Source: Mycoplasmataceae bacterium (lineage in GTDB: Bacteria; Bacillota_I; Bacilli_A; Mycoplasmatales; Mycoplasmoidaceae). From it: 64,000 nucleotides of DNA. A program made the translations under genes and the position numbers. The notes below the pieces were generated by a model that was given only the letters and a program-made list of their open reading frames with translations, ran no database searches and was not told the origin of the DNA. The stretch's first letter is position 1, and each line of letters opens with the position of its first letter. Positions 3,282 through 59,043 of the stretch are shown piece after piece. The stretch lies in NCBI GenBank assembly GCA_031282505.1, contig JAITDP010000001.1:1-64000 (forward strand). Direction: 5' to 3'.

Positions 3282-4472
3282 CTAATTGTGCTTATTATTT
3301 TCTTCATGATAAATAATATTTATTTTATTTCTTTCTTGTTCGTTTTTTAAATCATATAAACGAATTCTAATAAATTGTTTTGAATCTCTGATTAAAAAAT
3401 CATCAACATTTTTAAATCAGAAATTATTAAGTCGACATACAAAGTAAGATGTTCCTTCGTTAATAACTTTTTCATAAAAAGATTTTTGTATGTTTGACAT
3501 AAAAACATTATTAGATTGATTCCAACTAGTTTTAACATCCATGTAGAATTTTTTCCCATTTGAAGTATGGATAATAAAGTCAAATGGATCACTTGTTTCC
3601 ACTCCTTTATTGATTCATTCAATTCTTTCAATCTTCTCTCCATAAGCATCTAGTTTAAGTTGAAGATTAGAATATAAAACTTTTGCTTTTTTTGCATTTA
3701 AGAATTCAACGAAACATTCTCCTAACAGTCCACGTTGTATAGCGTTCAAATTTTTCTTTTCAAAATTATCATAGTTAAATATTTTTTTAAGCTTAATATA
3801 TATTGGAGCATTAGATTTAAATGAAAGTTTAGGATTATCATTATTAGTTTTTAAATCTTCGCCATTAACCATATAAGATGCTATCTTTCTATTTTTAAGA
3901 AGTTTAAGTAAAACTATTTCATTTCCTATTAAAACAAAAATAGAAGCAACAAATATAAATAAAGGAAATATTCATACAAGTAACTTGTTAATTGGCGGTA
4001 TTAATAAACAACATAAAAATAAAATTAATGTAGCTATAGCTACACAACAAATAATGATTCTGTTTTTTTTGAAAGTTTTCTTGTATTTATAATTTAAATC
4101 TATTCGACTATTTTTTTCACTGGCTTTTGAAAAAATTTCAACAATTTTATTTTGATAATCAACAAAATTGTACCCTAAGTTATTTCCGATTTTGCATCAT
4201 TTTACACCAAGTCTAAAACACATTGAAATTTGAGCATAACGTTTATTTTCCTTAATTAAATATTCCATGTATTTTATGTACAGCTGGATTAATAATTCAA
4301 TAGCTTTCTTTTGGTGCTTTTCAGCAGCCATCCTTAGATATTTTTCAGCACGTGAAAAATTACTATTGCTATTAATAGGAGCATTTAGATAATACTCACC
4401 CAATGTTATTTGAGCCTCATGATCATGAAGCATTGCTTTTTTAATCAAAGCATCGATTTCGATTTTTTCCAT
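3282..4472 (-). CDS. Sel1-like / two-TM / PD-(D/E)XK nuclease-like fusion protein
   Basis: This 396-residue protein appears only when several TGA codons are read as Trp. Residues 1-80 look like Sel1/TPR helices (LGEYYLNA, then AEKYLRMAAEKHQKKAIELL). Two adjacent membrane segments lie near residues 145-190 (CCVAIATLILFLCCLLI and VWIFPLFIFVASIFVLI). The C-terminal domain reads GLLGECFVEFL, then about 50 residues later DPFDFIIHTSNGKKFYMDVKTS. This E...D...(D)VK pattern is that of restriction-endonuclease-like folds such as DUF3883 or Mrr. The gene starts 8 nt after the rpsB stop on the same transcript. Membrane tethering of a nuclease-like domain is unusual. Function is unknown; nuclease activity is an inference from the motif spacing only. 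Confidence 0.6.
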
Positions 4473-25802: not shown

Positions 25803-27804
25803 TTATGAACTTGAAACAGTTCAGCCAGTACTAGTAATACCACAATTTACAAACAACGTTAATGTCAGATCTGCACTATAATCACCAGTAAAATTAACCA
25901 ATCTAATAGTACCATTAGAACTAGTAGAAGAAAATTTTGTTGAGACAGTAGCACTATCAGTGGCCGCTTGTTTATCTCAATTTGGCAAACTACTAAATCC
26001 ATTCAAAACTATATCACTTAAATTTGTACAATTTAAAAAGCATTTAAAATCAATAGAAGATTGATCAGACAAAGAACCTTGTAGCGTCACGCCACCTAAT
26101 AATGTACAATTAGAAAATGCACCTTCACCAATTTTTTTTACCTTATAAGGAAACTCTATTTTTCCTTTTAGATTAGAACAACCATAAAACGCATCTTTAT
26201 TAATAATTAATGATGAACTACCGGTTGAAGAACCAATAGTAAGTCCTTCGATGTAATCACCATAAAATGCTCCTTTGCCAATCATTCGGCAATTATTTGG
26301 TATTGTAAGAGAGAGTATTTTCGTTGTTGAAGAAAAAACACTATCAAAAGCATAGTCGCAAATAGTCGTAGTATTAACATTTAAAGAACAACTAGCAGGA
26401 TAAGTTCCGCTAGTTTGAACTTTAATATATGATCCTATGCAATAATAATAAATACCACAATGAAGATAGTATATATTATCTGATGAGTATGAAATTTTAT
26501 TTACTGGATATTCGCTATTATAACTTGTTACTATACCAGTACAACCATAAAATGCACGGTTGCCAATGCTTGGGGCTTCCGTACCAGTAGTTGTAATATT
26601 TACACCGGTTAGATTAGTACAACGAGTAAAAGCATATTCACCAATAGTTACATTTGAAGTTGAACAAAAAGTCAGCACACCAGGTAGACTACTACAACCA
26701 GCAAAAGAACTATTACCAAAATTCGTAATTTTTCCAAAATTAGTTATACTTGTAAGGCTACTACATCCATAAAAAGTTCCTTCTTCTACAGAAGAAAAAC
26801 CACTACTTGGAAAGCTTAAAGAGGTTAAACTACTGCATCCCTCAAAAGTGTTTCTCTTAACAACTCAACTAGAACCTATAGTCAATTCTCCAGTAATTCT
26901 ATAGCAATCTTTAAAAGCACGATCACCAATTGTTACTGCTGTACTAGGAATAGTCAAAGTTCCAGTTAGATTCTGACAACTACAAAATGCTTCATTATTG
27001 ATATTTGTAACAGTAACTGGAATACTTAAGCTAGTTAAGCTCGAACATTTGCAAAAAGCAGTACTTCCAATACTTGTTACTCCACTAGGAATTGTCAAAC
27101 TACCAGTTAGACCAGACGAATTAGAAAAAAAAGCCCCATCCCCAATTGAAACCAAATTATAATAAGTGCCATCTGAAGATGATCATATTTGTGATGGTAT
27201 TGATAAATTATTAGCTACAAGTGAACTACTACTTGTGATAGAACAAGTACGAACATCACCAGCGTTACTTCAATTACCAACTGTAATTGTACCATTATTA
27301 ACACCAAATCAATTAGAACCATCTGGTAAACCATACAATAAAGCATTTCCATAGTAAATATATCCGGTAGTAGATGTAGTGTAATTTACGCTACTTGAAT
27401 CAACGATGTTTGCTGTAATTTTATACGAAAAAGAAGAACCTGCATCAGAAAATTGATTAATTTTGTAACTTGATGGATCGAATGTCAAAACTCCACTAGA
27501 TGTTTCTAAAGTAATAGTACTAGATTGTAAACCTTCTGAATAATCAGAAATTGTATATGAAATGGTATAATCTGGAGAGGAAATTGGTTGACCGTTTAAT
27601 AAAACTTGAAGTGTTTCTGATGATATTTCTGTATTATTAGGAATATCAATATCAAAATTACCTAGAGTAAAAACTTTCTCATCCGATGGATCATCACCAC
27701 CATTACTACCACCACATTGATTTAAAAATAAAAGTGGACTTAAGACCCCCCCCAATCATAAGTGGAGTTGATAATAAAGCTAAGAGTTTTGTTTTATGTT
27801 TCAT
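25803..27804 (-). CDS. BspA-like LRR lipoprotein 1, phase-variable (frameshifted/OFF here)
   Basis: The ATG at 27804 opens a signal peptide MKHKTKLLALLSTPLMIG. A run of eight G (27746-27753) then shifts the frame to an early stop. With seven or ten G, the frame would continue as GGVLSPLLFLNQCGGS (a lipoprotein-like LNQC) into a 666-residue protein (seven-G version). The body has an N-terminal beta-rich region (residues 30-170) and about ten BspA-type leucine-rich repeats (patterns like SLTIPSGVTSIGSTAFCKCSSLT). A YYLHCGIYYYCIGSYI module interrupts the repeats. BspA-like repeats mediate adhesion in oral bacteria and Trichomonas. The promoter carries a poly-A spacer of 15. Confidence 0.7.
27746..27753 (-). 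repeat. poly-G tract (8 G) in signal peptide of BspA-like gene 1
   Basis: Eight C on the plus strand. Seven or ten G would restore the lipoprotein frame; eight puts it out of frame, with a stop about 15 codons later. Confidence 0.85.
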
Positions 27805-27811
27805 TATCTAT

Positions 27812-27840
27812 GTTATATGTTTTTTTTTTTTTTTGTGGCA
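27812..27840 (-). promoter_or_regulatory. BspA-like gene 1 promoter with 15-A spacer
   Basis: On the minus strand: TTGCCA, then C-A15-CA, then TATAAC, then 7 nt and the ATG. The 15 A put the -35-like and -10-like hexamers 18 nt apart, close to optimal. The poly-T on the plus strand is 27820-27834. Confidence 0.55.
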
Positions 27841-27853
27841 AAAACATTAAAAA

Positions 27854-29277
27854 TTAAGAAGCAAGTTGCCAATTTGTTCCTTGACCACTTGGTAAACCTA
27901 AATTGTATAAGAAATCCAAAGTTGGTGGTTGTCACCCACCTGTAACACTTACAGTTCCTGAAGCACTTATGCCTGTAAATACGTTCACTGCATTTCATGA
28001 TGGCTGTGAAGAAAAATTATTCAAATTAATTTGGGAAAAGTTTGAACAATATCTAAAAGCATAATTCCCAATATTTGCCACTTCATTTCCAATAGTAAGT
28101 CCAGTAATATTTTGGCACCCTTCAAAAGAAGAAGCCCCAATACTTGTAACACTATTTGGAATAGTTAAACTTCCAGTTATGCCTACACAAGATTGAAAAG
28201 CATAATTCCCAACTCATTCAACACTATTAGGAATATTCAAACTTCCTGTCAAACCAACAAAATATCTAAAAGCTGCTGCGCCAATTCCTAGCACACTATT
28301 AGGAATGATCAAATCCCACATTAAACCGCTACAATCATTCGAATAATTATCAAAAGCCTGAGTTCCAATTGATATAGTATTAGAATTTATACTTAATGTC
28401 CCACTAGGATTGATACCACTTGACATGACATTACTATACTTTCCTAAACAATAGTAATACTTATTGTTTCTAATGTAATACACATTATCTGATGAACATG
28501 ATATTTTATGATTATGATACTCATTATTCTTATATTCTCCCATTAAGTTTTGACAACCTTTAAATATATCAGTTCCCAAACGTGCCACCTTATTTCCAAG
28601 ATATAATTCAGTGATGCCAACACAATTTAAAAAAGCATAACTATTTATTATTGTTACACTATTAGGAATAGTTAAACTACCAGTCAGTCCAATACAACCA
28701 TCAAACGCCCTCACCCCAATACTTGTCACATTATTAGGAATATTCCAATCGCCAGTCAAACCACTACAAGATCTAAATGCATAATCCCCAACAATTGTTA
28801 CGTTATTAGGAATTATTAACTTTCCAGTCAAACCACTACACCATGTAAATGCATAATTACCAATACTTGTCACACTATCAGGAATGGTCAAACTTCCAGT
28901 CAAGCAAACTTGATCAACCGCAACACCACTCAATTGAGAAAAACTACTAGTATCTAAGTATGTCAATGGTAAAATAATACCACCTAAACTAGAAAATTGT
29001 ATTTTTTTAGGAATAATTAAATCTTTTGCAAAGTATAAAGTGCTACTAACGACATGGCAACCTATATATTTCTCGTCAACATCTTGATCAGCAACAATAG
29101 ACACCACACCAGTATCATCGTTTGCATGTCCCTTTCAATTAGTTCCATTTTCGTTTCCGACATAGTTGCAAGGATCGGATTCTTTACCACATTGATTTAA
29201 AAATAAAAGAGGAGCAAACCCCCCCCAATCATAAGTGGAGTTGATAATAAAGCTAAGAGTTTTGTTTTATGTTTCAT
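27854..29277 (-). CDS. BspA-like LRR lipoprotein 2, phase-variable (frameshifted/OFF here)
   Basis: Same signal peptide start as gene 1 (MKHKTKLLALLSTPLMIG), followed by eight G (29219-29226). The long frame needs six or nine G (FAPLLFLNQCGKESD...); with nine the product would be 474 residues. The body has about 12 BspA-type repeats (for example SLTIPDSVTSIGNYAFTWCS) and one YYIRNNKYYYCLGKYSNV module near the middle. The C-terminus (SGQGTNWQLAS) and the preceding 60 residues are nearly identical to gene 3. TGA encodes Trp in the tail. The promoter is the same as for gene 1 but with only seven A, predicting weak transcription. Confidence 0.7.
29219..29226 (-). repeat. poly-G tract (8 G) in signal peptide of BspA-like gene 2
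   Basis: Eight C on the plus strand; six or nine would be in frame with the lipoprotein body. Confidence 0.85.
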
Positions 29278-29284
29278 TATCTAT

Positions 29285-29305
29285 GTTATATGTTTTTTTG
29301 TGGCA
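29285..29305 (-). promoter_or_regulatory. BspA-like gene 2 promoter with 7-A spacer
   Basis: The same TTGCCA and TATAAC elements as the gene 1 promoter, but with seven A between them (29293-29299), so the spacing is only 10 nt. This is predicted to be inactive or very weak. Confidence 0.5.
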
Positions 29306-29318
29306 AAAACATTAAAAA

Positions 29319-31399
29319 TTAAGAAGCAAGTTGCCAATTTGTTCCTTCACCACTTGGTAAACCTAAATTGTATAAGAAATCCAAAGTTTGTGGTTGTCAC
29401 CCACCTGTAACACTTACAGTTCCTGAAGCACTTATGCCTGTAAATACGCTCATTGCATTTCATGATGGCTGTGAAGAAAAATTATTCAAATTAATTTGGG
29501 AAATGTTTGAACAACTATAAAACGCATAGCTTCCCATGATTTCCACTTTATTTCCGATAGAAAGCCCACTAACACTATAGCAACTCAAAAAAGCAAAACT
29601 TCCAATACTCACTACATTATTTCCAATAGTAAGTCCAGTAATTTTGTTGCACCCTTCAAAAGAAGAAGCCCCAATACTTGTAACACTATCGGGAATGTGT
29701 AAACTACCACTCAATCCAGAACAACTACTAAAAGCCGCATCTCTGATATTTGTGACATTATTTCCAATAGTAAGTCCAGTAATATTTTTGCACTGTTCAA
29801 AAGAAGAAACCCCAATACTTGTAACACTATCTGGAATCGTTAAATTATTGGAAATGTTAGAACAACCTTTAAAAGCATAATTTTCTATACGTGGCACGTG
29901 ATTTCCAATAGTAAGTCCAGTAATTCCTGTACACGAGCAGAATGCTGAAGCTCCAATTTTTGTAGTGGTATTAGGAATAGTTAAATTTCCCCCTAAATTT
30001 TGACAATATACAAACGAACTCACACCAATACTTATAACACTATCAGGGATATGTAGAGTTCCACTTAGATCATAGCAGTCATAAAAAGCCCGATCGGCAA
30101 TCACTTTAGTACTAGAATTTATACTTAATGTCCCACTAGGATTAAACCCAGATGAAGTAACATTTTTATACTTTCCTAAACAATAGTAATTGTTATCGCT
30201 TTTAATGTAATATACATTATCTGATGAAAATGATATTTTATAATTAGGATATCCAGATGACTCACTTCACTCTTCTAGTAAACTAGTGCAACTTAAAAAT
30301 GCATATTGACCAATAATATCTACTCCTGTCCCTATATGAAGTGTAGTAATGTTACTACAATTTCGAAAAGCATAATCTCCAATACTTGTAACACTATTAG
30401 GAATGGTTAAACACTCGGTTACACTATTGCAGTTATCAAAAGCATAACTTCCAATACTTACCACTTTATTTCCAATAGATAATCCGATAATGTTGGAACA
30501 ACTTTGAAATGCATAATTTCCAATAGTTTTAACACTATCAGGAATAGTTAAATTTCCTGTCAAATTATTACAGCCTTTAAAAGCACTTGGGCCAATTCCT
30601 AGCACACTATTAGGAATAATCAAATCCCCTACTAGTAAACTACATCCAGAAAAAGCGGCACCTCCAATCGCTTTGGTATTAGAATTCAAAGTTAATGTTC
30701 CACTAGGGGGTTCACCCGTATCGACAACGTTACTATACATTCCTAAACAATAGTAATAGTCATCATTTCTAATGTAATACACATTATCTGATGAATATGA
30801 TATTTTATGATTAGGATACTCATCATTTTCTTGTTCTCCTATTAAGTTTTGACAGCCTTTAAATACATAAGTTCCAATAACTTCCACCTTATTTCCAATA
30901 GATAATTCGGCAATATTAGTACATTTTAAAAAAGCATTACTATCTATAATTGTTACATTGTTTCCAATAGTCAAAGTCCCACTTAATTTATTACATCCAC
31001 TAAATGAACTAGTCCCAATGCTTGTCACACTATTAGGAATAGTTAAACTACCACCTAGTCCAATACAATTAAAAAAAGCAAGTGCAGAAATATTTGTCAA
31101 CGGAACAATCCTTCCATCACTAGTTCGAATGTGTTTTGGAATTATTAAGTCATCAGCTACATATGTTCTACCACTAGCAATAGAAGCTTTACCATCACTT
31201 ATTGAAATCGTAAGCAAGCTTGTTGAGTCACTAGGGTGCCCCTTTCAATCACTACCTGTATCGTCCCCAACATAATTAGATGGGCTATTGTCATCATCTG
31301 GTGAATTGCCACATTGATTTAAAAATAAAAGTGGAGTTAAGCCCCCCCAAGTAAGATAGGAGATGACAATAATGCCAAAAGTTTAGTTTTATGTTTCAT
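29319..31399 (-). CDS. BspA-like LRR lipoprotein 3, phase-variable (frameshifted/OFF here)
   Basis: The start MKHKTKLLALLSSPILLG is followed by seven G (31342-31348), which bring an immediate stop. Eight (or five) would give GGLTPLLFLNQCGNSPDDD and a 693-residue protein. It is the largest of the three, with about 18 BspA-type repeats (for example SLTIPNSVTSIGTSSFSGCN) and two YYxxYYCLGxY modules near residues 190 and 390, suggesting an internal duplication. TATAAT lies 7 nt before the ATG. The gene begins 32 bp downstream of the clpB stop on the same strand. Its 3' end is nearly identical to gene 2. Confidence 0.7.
31342..31348 (-). repeat. poly-G tract (7 G) in signal peptide of BspA-like gene 3
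   Basis: Seven C on the plus strand; five or eight would be in frame. With seven, GGA is followed directly by TAA. Confidence 0.85.
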
Positions 31400-33630: not shown

Positions 33631-34674
33631 ATGAAAAAACTAAACCAATCATATGATGTAGTTATTTGCTCACACAATGATCCTTATTGTAATTTTGGGG
33701 GGGTCGAAGTTTACAACAAAAGACTTGTTGAACTTTTTTTAAAAAACAATCTTAAAGTTCTTTATTTTGTGATTGTTCCAGCAATTTCACAAGAAAACAA
33801 ACAAAAAAGTTTATGTGATATTACTTATGACTGAAATTTTGCTTTTCTTATGGCAAAAAAAGCAAAACTTTGTATATATTCAGGTTCACTTAATAACAAA
33901 ACCTTTATAAAGATGTTTTCTGGATTAAAAAATTCTGTCAATATTCAACATTCAGATGCTTCATACTATAACCGTAGAAATGAAAAATGGAAATTAAATC
34001 TATCTAAAACCATTGTTTGTTATACAAACAACGACAACACATTCATATCCAATGTGATTAAAAAAAAGAAACTGCATGGTTTTAACATTGTTCCAATTAT
34101 TATTCCACTTGATCTTAAACCACTGCCAAAAAAACAAAACAAAATTTGTAAATTAATTTATTTTGGTAGAATTGTCAAAGGTAAAGGTATATACTTTTTA
34201 TTGAAAATGTTATCTCACCTTAATTATGATATCCATTTTTATGGCTTTATACCTAACTATTTTAAATTCCCAAAAAAATATGAAAAATATAAATCGCTTT
34301 TCTTTGGAAAATATAACAATAAAGACTTGCCTAACATTATTAAACAATACAACTATACAATAACCGCTACTAATGCTGAAGGTTTTTGCATTGCATTAGC
34401 TGAAAGCATGGCATGTTCCACACCAATTATTTTAAAGAACACATTTCAAAATGCTGATTTTCTTATAGATAAAGGAAAAAATGGTTTTTTTTATGATAAA
34501 AAAGCATCACCTAAAAAAGCGGCCAAACAAATTAATGCCTATATAGAAAACAATGATTGGCAAAAAACTAGCAAAAATTGCTATGAGTTTGCCAAAAAAT
34601 GATTTCCCAAAGAAAATTGAGAAAAAAAGTGAATGGATTTATACAAAAGTTTTAGCAATTCAAAACAAAAGTAA
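33631..34674 (+). CDS. GT4-type glycosyltransferase with poly-G tract (ON here)
   Basis: A 347-residue GT-B fold enzyme. The N-terminal domain begins with YDVVICSHNDPYCNFGGVEVYNKRLVELF, where GGVE is the acceptor-side glycine motif of GT4 enzymes. The C-terminal donor domain has LIYFGRIVKGKGIYFLLKML and the EX7E motif EGFCIALAESMACSTPII. The glycines of FGGV are encoded by a run of seven G (33697-33703), and the frame is intact here; loss or gain of one G would truncate the protein within about 30 codons. Probable role: glycolipid or surface polysaccharide synthesis; donor and acceptor unknown. It is divergent from clpB and followed by recU. Confidence 0.82.
33697..33703 (+). repeat. poly-G tract (7 G) in glycosyltransferase
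   Basis: Seven G at codons 23-25, in frame. One of only five G/C runs of seven or more in this window. Confidence 0.85.
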
Positions 34675-58089: not shown

Positions 58090-59043
58090 ATGAAATTGCA
58101 AAGTATTAAAAAAAAATCTAAACTTGCATATTTAAAAAACGTTTGACCTACACTTCTTTTATTTGTTGGTTTTTTCATTTTTGAAATTGCATACATGGTA
58201 ATTATTTATAAATTCCATACACAAATGTATAAATTTTCTTTCCTTGGAAATAAAACGAGTTTATGAGTTGTTTATGGTACAGGTCTTATTATTTCATTAG
58301 GACTTTTAGGCTTTTATTTTTTTGTTCGTAAAAACCCAGAAGAAAAAAGTCTTTTCATAAAATTATTTTGTTTATTGCCATTATTAAATAGTTTCCCATT
58401 GGTTTATATTGATATATGAGATAGTTTAAAAAACAATAAATATGAACTATTCCAAATACCTCAAATTTTTTTCGTTCCTTCACTATGTAACATTAATATG
58501 TATTTAATTATTTACTTGTGCTTTGGCAAAAAGAAAAATGCTATCTATGGATCATTAGCATATTTTTTTATTTTTACAGGAATTGCGGGGGGGTTAATAA
58601 ATAGTATAGGTTTCCCATTTACTAACACACTTAACCCAGATGATTCACATCCTGCAATACTCTATAAATTATTTGCTAACGAATATACACACATATCACT
58701 ATGATGTATAGCAATAATTGCAATTAAAGAAAAATGAGCTAAATTTAATCTTGTTAATGTATTGTGATTTACTTTTTATTTGTTTTTAACTTTTTTATGA
58801 GGATTCTGAGAACTAAAAGTATTTGGCGATAGTGATGGTACTGTATTCGGCGGAAATCCAGGTATGTATATAGCGTATGGAATGCTTGGTCAAGATGATA
58901 AAATTTTTAGAATATACACCATATATTCTATTGGCATAGTTGCTTGCTTCTTTATTTCATTAACATACGAGCTTACTCTTATGCCTAAAAAAGAAAGATT
59001 TTATAGCAAAAAATTTAACATACTTGATACATATTGAAAATAA
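58090..59043 (+). CDS. multipass membrane protein with poly-G tract (ON here)
   Basis: A 317-residue protein with seven to eight helices, possibly of the YwaF/TMEM164 or mycoplasma DUF5378 type (FVPSLCNINMYLIIYLCFG; NPDDSHPAILYKLFANEYTHISL). A run of seven G (58587-58593) encodes Gly-Gly in helix 5 (FTGIAGGLINSIGFPF) and is in frame. A one-base change would cut the protein near its middle. Its start is 3 nt after the preceding stop. It converges with the next membrane protein, which has a similar size and topology. Substrate and role unknown. Confidence 0.6.
58587..58593 (+). repeat. poly-G tract (7 G) in membrane protein gene
   Basis: Seven G in frame. It resembles the tracts in the BspA-like and glycosyltransferase genes. 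Confidence 0.8.

Follow-up and report, generated by a model that had tools for sequence, protein, structure and literature searches.

Does the length of an A tract decide whether a surface lipoprotein gene of this mycoplasma-like bacterium is transcribed? The question is raised by two neighboring promoters in the stretch of DNA analyzed here (64 kb, referred to as the window), which share their core elements and differ in the A run between them. Both belong to a minus-strand cluster of three genes, which run gene 3, gene 2, gene 1, with a clpB gene directly upstream. The products of genes 1–3 are BspA-type LRR_5 proteins with a lipobox, TGA being read as Trp. The relevant features are the following.

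25803..27804, minus strand: gene 1, LRR_5 (BspA-type) lipoprotein; ATG at 27804; G8 tract in the signal peptide at 27753-27746
27812..27841, minus strand: gene 1 promoter, TTGCCA (27841-27836), C, A15, CA, TATAAC (27817-27812); read directly and found by whole-genome pattern search
27820..27834, minus strand: A15 tract, the variable element of the gene 1 promoter
27854..29277, minus strand: gene 2, LRR_5 lipoprotein; ATG at 29277; G8 tract at 29226-29219
29285..29306, minus strand: gene 2 promoter, TTGCCA, C, A7, CA, TATAAC; read directly
29319..31399, minus strand: gene 3, LRR_5 lipoprotein, first of the cluster; ATG at 31399; G7 tract at 31348-31342

The original prediction stated that genes 1 and 2 have the same TTGCCA and TATAAC elements, separated by A runs of 15 and 7, and that the spacing thereby becomes 18 and 10 nt. 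Direct reading of both promoters on the minus strand agreed with this to the base: TTGCCAC-A15-CATATAAC was found for gene 1 and TTGCCAC-A7-CATATAAC for gene 2, giving spacers between TTGCCA and TATAAC of 18 nt and 10 nt, respectively. In each case a homopolymeric A tract lies within the promoter and adjoins the -10 box, and TATAAC is 7 nt away from the ATG. No better -35 element was found for gene 2, as hexamers located 14-22 nt from its -10 box scored at most 3/6 against TTGACA or TTGCCA. The consensus promoter scanner demands a TATAAT-type final T and consequently did not list the promoters of genes 1 and 2. Gene 3 carries TATAAT 7 nt ahead of its ATG and has no poly-A spacer. RNA structure predicted around the A tract was no better than that of shuffled sequences.

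The two promoters are part of a duplicated block of about 297 nt preceding the poly-G, which comprises the end of the upstream gene, the intergenic region, the promoter and the start of the signal peptide. The copies differ by 5 substitutions and 1 indel, and this indel is the A tract. A comparable pair was found in two sister assemblies of the same genus, G011 and G029, at a locus that adjoins a gene read by eye as phosphoglycerate kinase: over 2,352 aligned nt, 11 substitutions and a single indel, A8 versus A15, were counted. Given this high identity, one of the contigs may belong to a strain of the other species; whichever species assignment holds, one locus is represented in two assemblies by unequal tract lengths. 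Judged from both alignments, tract length changes far faster than the flanks, while within the species studied here one consensus tract length per locus was seen. It is extremely unlikely that near-identical blocks were mixed during assembly or that a tract length is wrong. The assembly is indeed a draft of 10 contigs with near-identical repeats, but the difference amounts to 8 bases rather than 1-2, the tract fits within a single read, and other assemblies contain these length classes too. In Mycoplasma hominis, vaa alternates between A8 and A7 at about 1e-3 to 1e-4 (PMC2831843), and by analogy the A7 of gene 2 is not necessarily frozen. Since the path from A7 to A15 takes many steps, gene 2 is more aptly assigned to a short allelic class than taken for the other end of an active switch, and its A7 may change length only rarely.

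Long A runs are rare in this genome and their placement is not random. The A15 tract is the only A/T run longer than 9 in the 64-kb window, where about 0.05 such runs are expected from run-length decay. In the 501 kb genome, 2 A runs of at least 14 were observed (about 1 expected), and each ends 2-3 nt short of the TATAA box that precedes a lipoprotein gene. The second one, an A16 on contig C2 (25473), is followed by CGA-TATAAT and, 11 nt further, by the ATG of a lipoprotein without Pfam match (MQRKLFRY...LSLTQC). Among ordinary A runs of at least 6 in the window, TATAA occupies that position in 16 of 344; against this background, computed from the 64-kb window, finding it at two of two long runs has a p of about 0.002. 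Thus, the placement of poly-A is beyond chance. The promoters of genes 1 and 2 drive surface lipoprotein genes, as identified by the lipobox and the LRR_5 domain.

A pattern search within the same genus, known here from draft assemblies, revealed 13 A-CGAG-TATAA sites in G035 and 10 in G029, further sites in G032 and G011, and looser versions of the module in G002, G033 and G026. The sister promoters have the form A(7-20)-CGAG-TATAAA. Where enough sequence was available, 18 of the 23 distinct CGAG sites drive genes with a clear lipobox, and both products tested (2/2) were LRR_5 proteins. At the CGAG sites, the short tracts measure 7, 7, 8 and 8, the long ones 15 to 20, and no tract of 9-14 occurs; because paralogues within one genome are not independent, this division into a short (7-8) and a long (15-20) class can be taken only as a suggestion. 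Of the 14 A tracts of at least 14 among the matches listed for G035, 12 sit at this promoter position. The element ahead of the tract is loosely defined in the sister species (TTGTTGC, TTTTTTC and others). To judge from these searches, lipoprotein genes of sister species share a conserved upstream module made up of an A tract, C(G)A(G) and TATAA. Taken together with the A-tract indel amid near-identical flanks, this points to a hypermutable element within a genus-conserved promoter module. A DNA search of 60 relatives with the promoter block gave convincing matches in its own genome alone. In an order-wide pattern search, 23 of 320 genomes had poly-A promoters, a few of these lying at lipoprotein genes. 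Two other arrangements were encountered along the way. On contig C8 of G004 (L243, L269), genes starting with MKKS, at least one of which has a lipobox, are preceded by a poly-A promoter of another design, in which GACTAAAAATTGAAATATAAAA follows A16-A18. Contigs C1 and C3 of G023 contain many A tracts of at least 14, followed by CGCAAG..GTAGTAAAAAAATAGGG...CCCTATTTTT, a pattern suggestive of an intergenic repeat that includes a hairpin resembling a terminator.

How could tract length act? We consider it probable that slippage makes the A tract a promoter spacer of variable length, which switches transcription of a surface LRR lipoprotein gene through the distance between the -35 and -10 elements. 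Slippage within the tract would shift TTGCCA relative to the -10 box. With the 18-nt spacer of the A15 allele (gene 1), RNA polymerase would be able to use both elements, whereas with the 10-nt spacer of the A7 allele (gene 2) it would not, and transcription would be heritably higher or lower in different cells. The effect of tract length on RNA is inferred by analogy with the vlp genes of M. hyorhinis. In detail, the model is plausible. Productive promoters of Mycoplasma pneumoniae show a -35 bias toward TTGCCA at -37 to -32 (PMC5573727), which corresponds to a spacer of about 19 nt, within one base of that of gene 1. In Mycoplasma gallisepticum, RNA synthesis begins at a purine 6 nt past the -10 box (PMC4245973). 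Applied to genes 1 and 2, this rule places the start at the A just before the ATG, and hence their mRNAs should be practically leaderless. In the window, a TATAAT-like box lies 4-11 nt ahead of the ATG in 15 of 49 called genes, and a Shine-Dalgarno-like sequence was found in 5 of 49. Against the spacer model stand the mycoplasma -35 boxes, which are generally weak and are weak or absent in most promoters (PMC5573727, PMC4245973), the loosely defined elements of the sister promoters, possible read-through, and the single length seen per locus. No -35 box is visible in the other promoters of the window.

Some of these points speak for the main rival, in which tract length sets transcription otherwise, through an A-rich upstream element, a bend or a length-dependent activator site. 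Weak -35 boxes would suit such a mechanism, and in the sister promoters it is the A tract and CGAG-TATAAA that stay constant while the preceding element varies. An activator recognizing 12 GAA repeats has been proposed for the vlhA genes (PMC6258824), and in G004 about 15 nt separate the poly-A of 16-18 from a downstream TATAAA, although a nearer TAAAAA could be the -10 box. In the window, however, the tract is preceded by an exact TTGCCA, the -35 sequence preferred in M. pneumoniae, set at 18 nt in the long allele. We regard a length-sensing activator or A-tract effect as unlikely and retain spacing as the preferred explanation.

A second homopolymer lies within the coding sequences. In the assembly, the ATG of gene 1 is out of frame with the lipobox frame owing to G8, and genes 2 and 3 are likewise out of frame at their poly-G tracts (G8 and G7). 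In total, 10 genes of the LRR_5 lipoprotein family in this genome carry G7-G8 in the signal peptide, 6 of them open and 4 closed, the closed ones including all three genes of the window. An early poly-G that sets the frame, present in both open and closed copies, is what a coding frame switch looks like, and this poly-G switching is a layer separate from the poly-A promoter tract. A long poly-A promoter tract and a poly-G were found together in gene 1 alone, and the sister CGAG-type genes examined have no G run of at least 6 near the start. In gene 1, the G8 would open or close the reading frame independently, so that the protein would be made only with poly-A and poly-G both at a permissive length. 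We tentatively propose, at somewhat less than even confidence, that gene 1 is such a two-lock gene in a genus that uses A(n)-C(G)A(G)-TATAA as a switch module dedicated to LRR lipoproteins, the short class switching rarely and the long class often. A promoter homopolymer and a coding homopolymer are also combined in one gene in porA of Neisseria meningitidis, which differs in that it belongs to another organism, has poly-G as promoter spacer and does not encode a lipoprotein.

Could the poly-G do all the switching, with the A tract being neutral, slippage-prone and of little effect on expression? Poly-G tracts alone can switch these genes, and 9 of the 11 lipoprotein genes of the LRR_5 family in this genome have no long poly-A. 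Moreover, no terminators were found between the genes of the cluster, all hits falling on the poly-G tracts themselves or in coding sequence; read-through is thus possible and could bypass the promoter or blur the switch. A neutral tract would sit poorly with its position 2-4 nt ahead of the -10 box, which is kept in several species, and with the concentration of long A tracts at surface-protein promoters, as in G035. We give control by poly-G, read-through or an element elsewhere only a slim chance compared with a tract that acts on transcription.

Other repeats were noted in this genome, whose GC content of 29% is the context of the G7 tracts. Another lipoprotein gene with poly-G has a (TA)8 repeat about 130 nt ahead of its start (G000:C6, L091:172-187). 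Possible switch tracts with an open frame are a G7 at 33697-33703 of the window, inside a glycosyltransferase gene (33631-34674), and a G7 at 58587-58593, in an ORF without Pfam match (58090-59043). A sugar-nucleotide pyrophosphorylase-like gene is interrupted in frame at a G8 tract (G000:C7:4304-4311).

The vlp genes of M. hyorhinis are switched by indels in the promoter poly-A (PMC10502178). As in vlp, where such indels accompany ON/OFF switching, genes 1 and 2 encode surface lipoproteins and have their own promoters, each with an A tract. Unlike vlp, the products are of the LRR_5/BspA type, the ATG lies 7 nt from the -10 box, and most family members use the signal-peptide poly-G instead. 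The likeness is one of mechanism, known here from sequence, and homology to vlp is not claimed. The original prediction had drawn this parallel and had seen in poly-A a second, transcriptional switch on top of poly-G. A length-variable promoter element did emerge, from the gene copies, the sister module and the A8/A15 pair, and poly-A is indeed layered on a coding poly-G, whereas the transcriptional action of the tract is argued from analogy. The poly-A of gene 1 is very probably a mutational on/off switch of the kind already known from M. hyorhinis. In the vmm gene of Mycoplasma mycoides, transcription is likewise switched by a change in promoter-spacer length (PMC10502178), but the spacer there contains dinucleotide TA repeats. 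The vlhA genes of M. gallisepticum also form a large surface-lipoprotein family with length-sensitive repeats upstream of the promoter core (PMC6258824); unlike here, these are trinucleotide GAA repeats located farther upstream and thought to need an activator. Translational on/off switching by homopolymer length, as for the poly-G described above, is known from M. hominis vaa and M. fermentans p78 (PMC2831843), although the tract there is a coding poly-A and not a promoter tract.

LRR surface proteins across a genus would thereby join the targets of poly-A switching at promoters, which is best known from a single swine mycoplasma. Across these loci, naturally occurring tracts of 7 to 20 are combined with promoter cores that hardly vary, so that spacer-length control of transcription under weak -35 boxes becomes directly testable, and combined switching can be examined simply in a gene with one homopolymer that would act on transcription and another that would act on translation. 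Homopolymers were also observed in genes of another kind. In the cas9 gene of this genome (G000:C1, about 3800-3990; Pfam Cas9_REC, E 1e-46), an A10 and a G7 occur in an open frame. In G034 (C3 near 120650, minus strand, L268), an A16 lies two codons after an ATG that does not share the frame of the downstream IHIAFDVGVASVGWAV; by eye, IHIAFDVGVASVGWAV resembles the start of Cas9 RuvC-I, making this gene a candidate phase-variable cas9.
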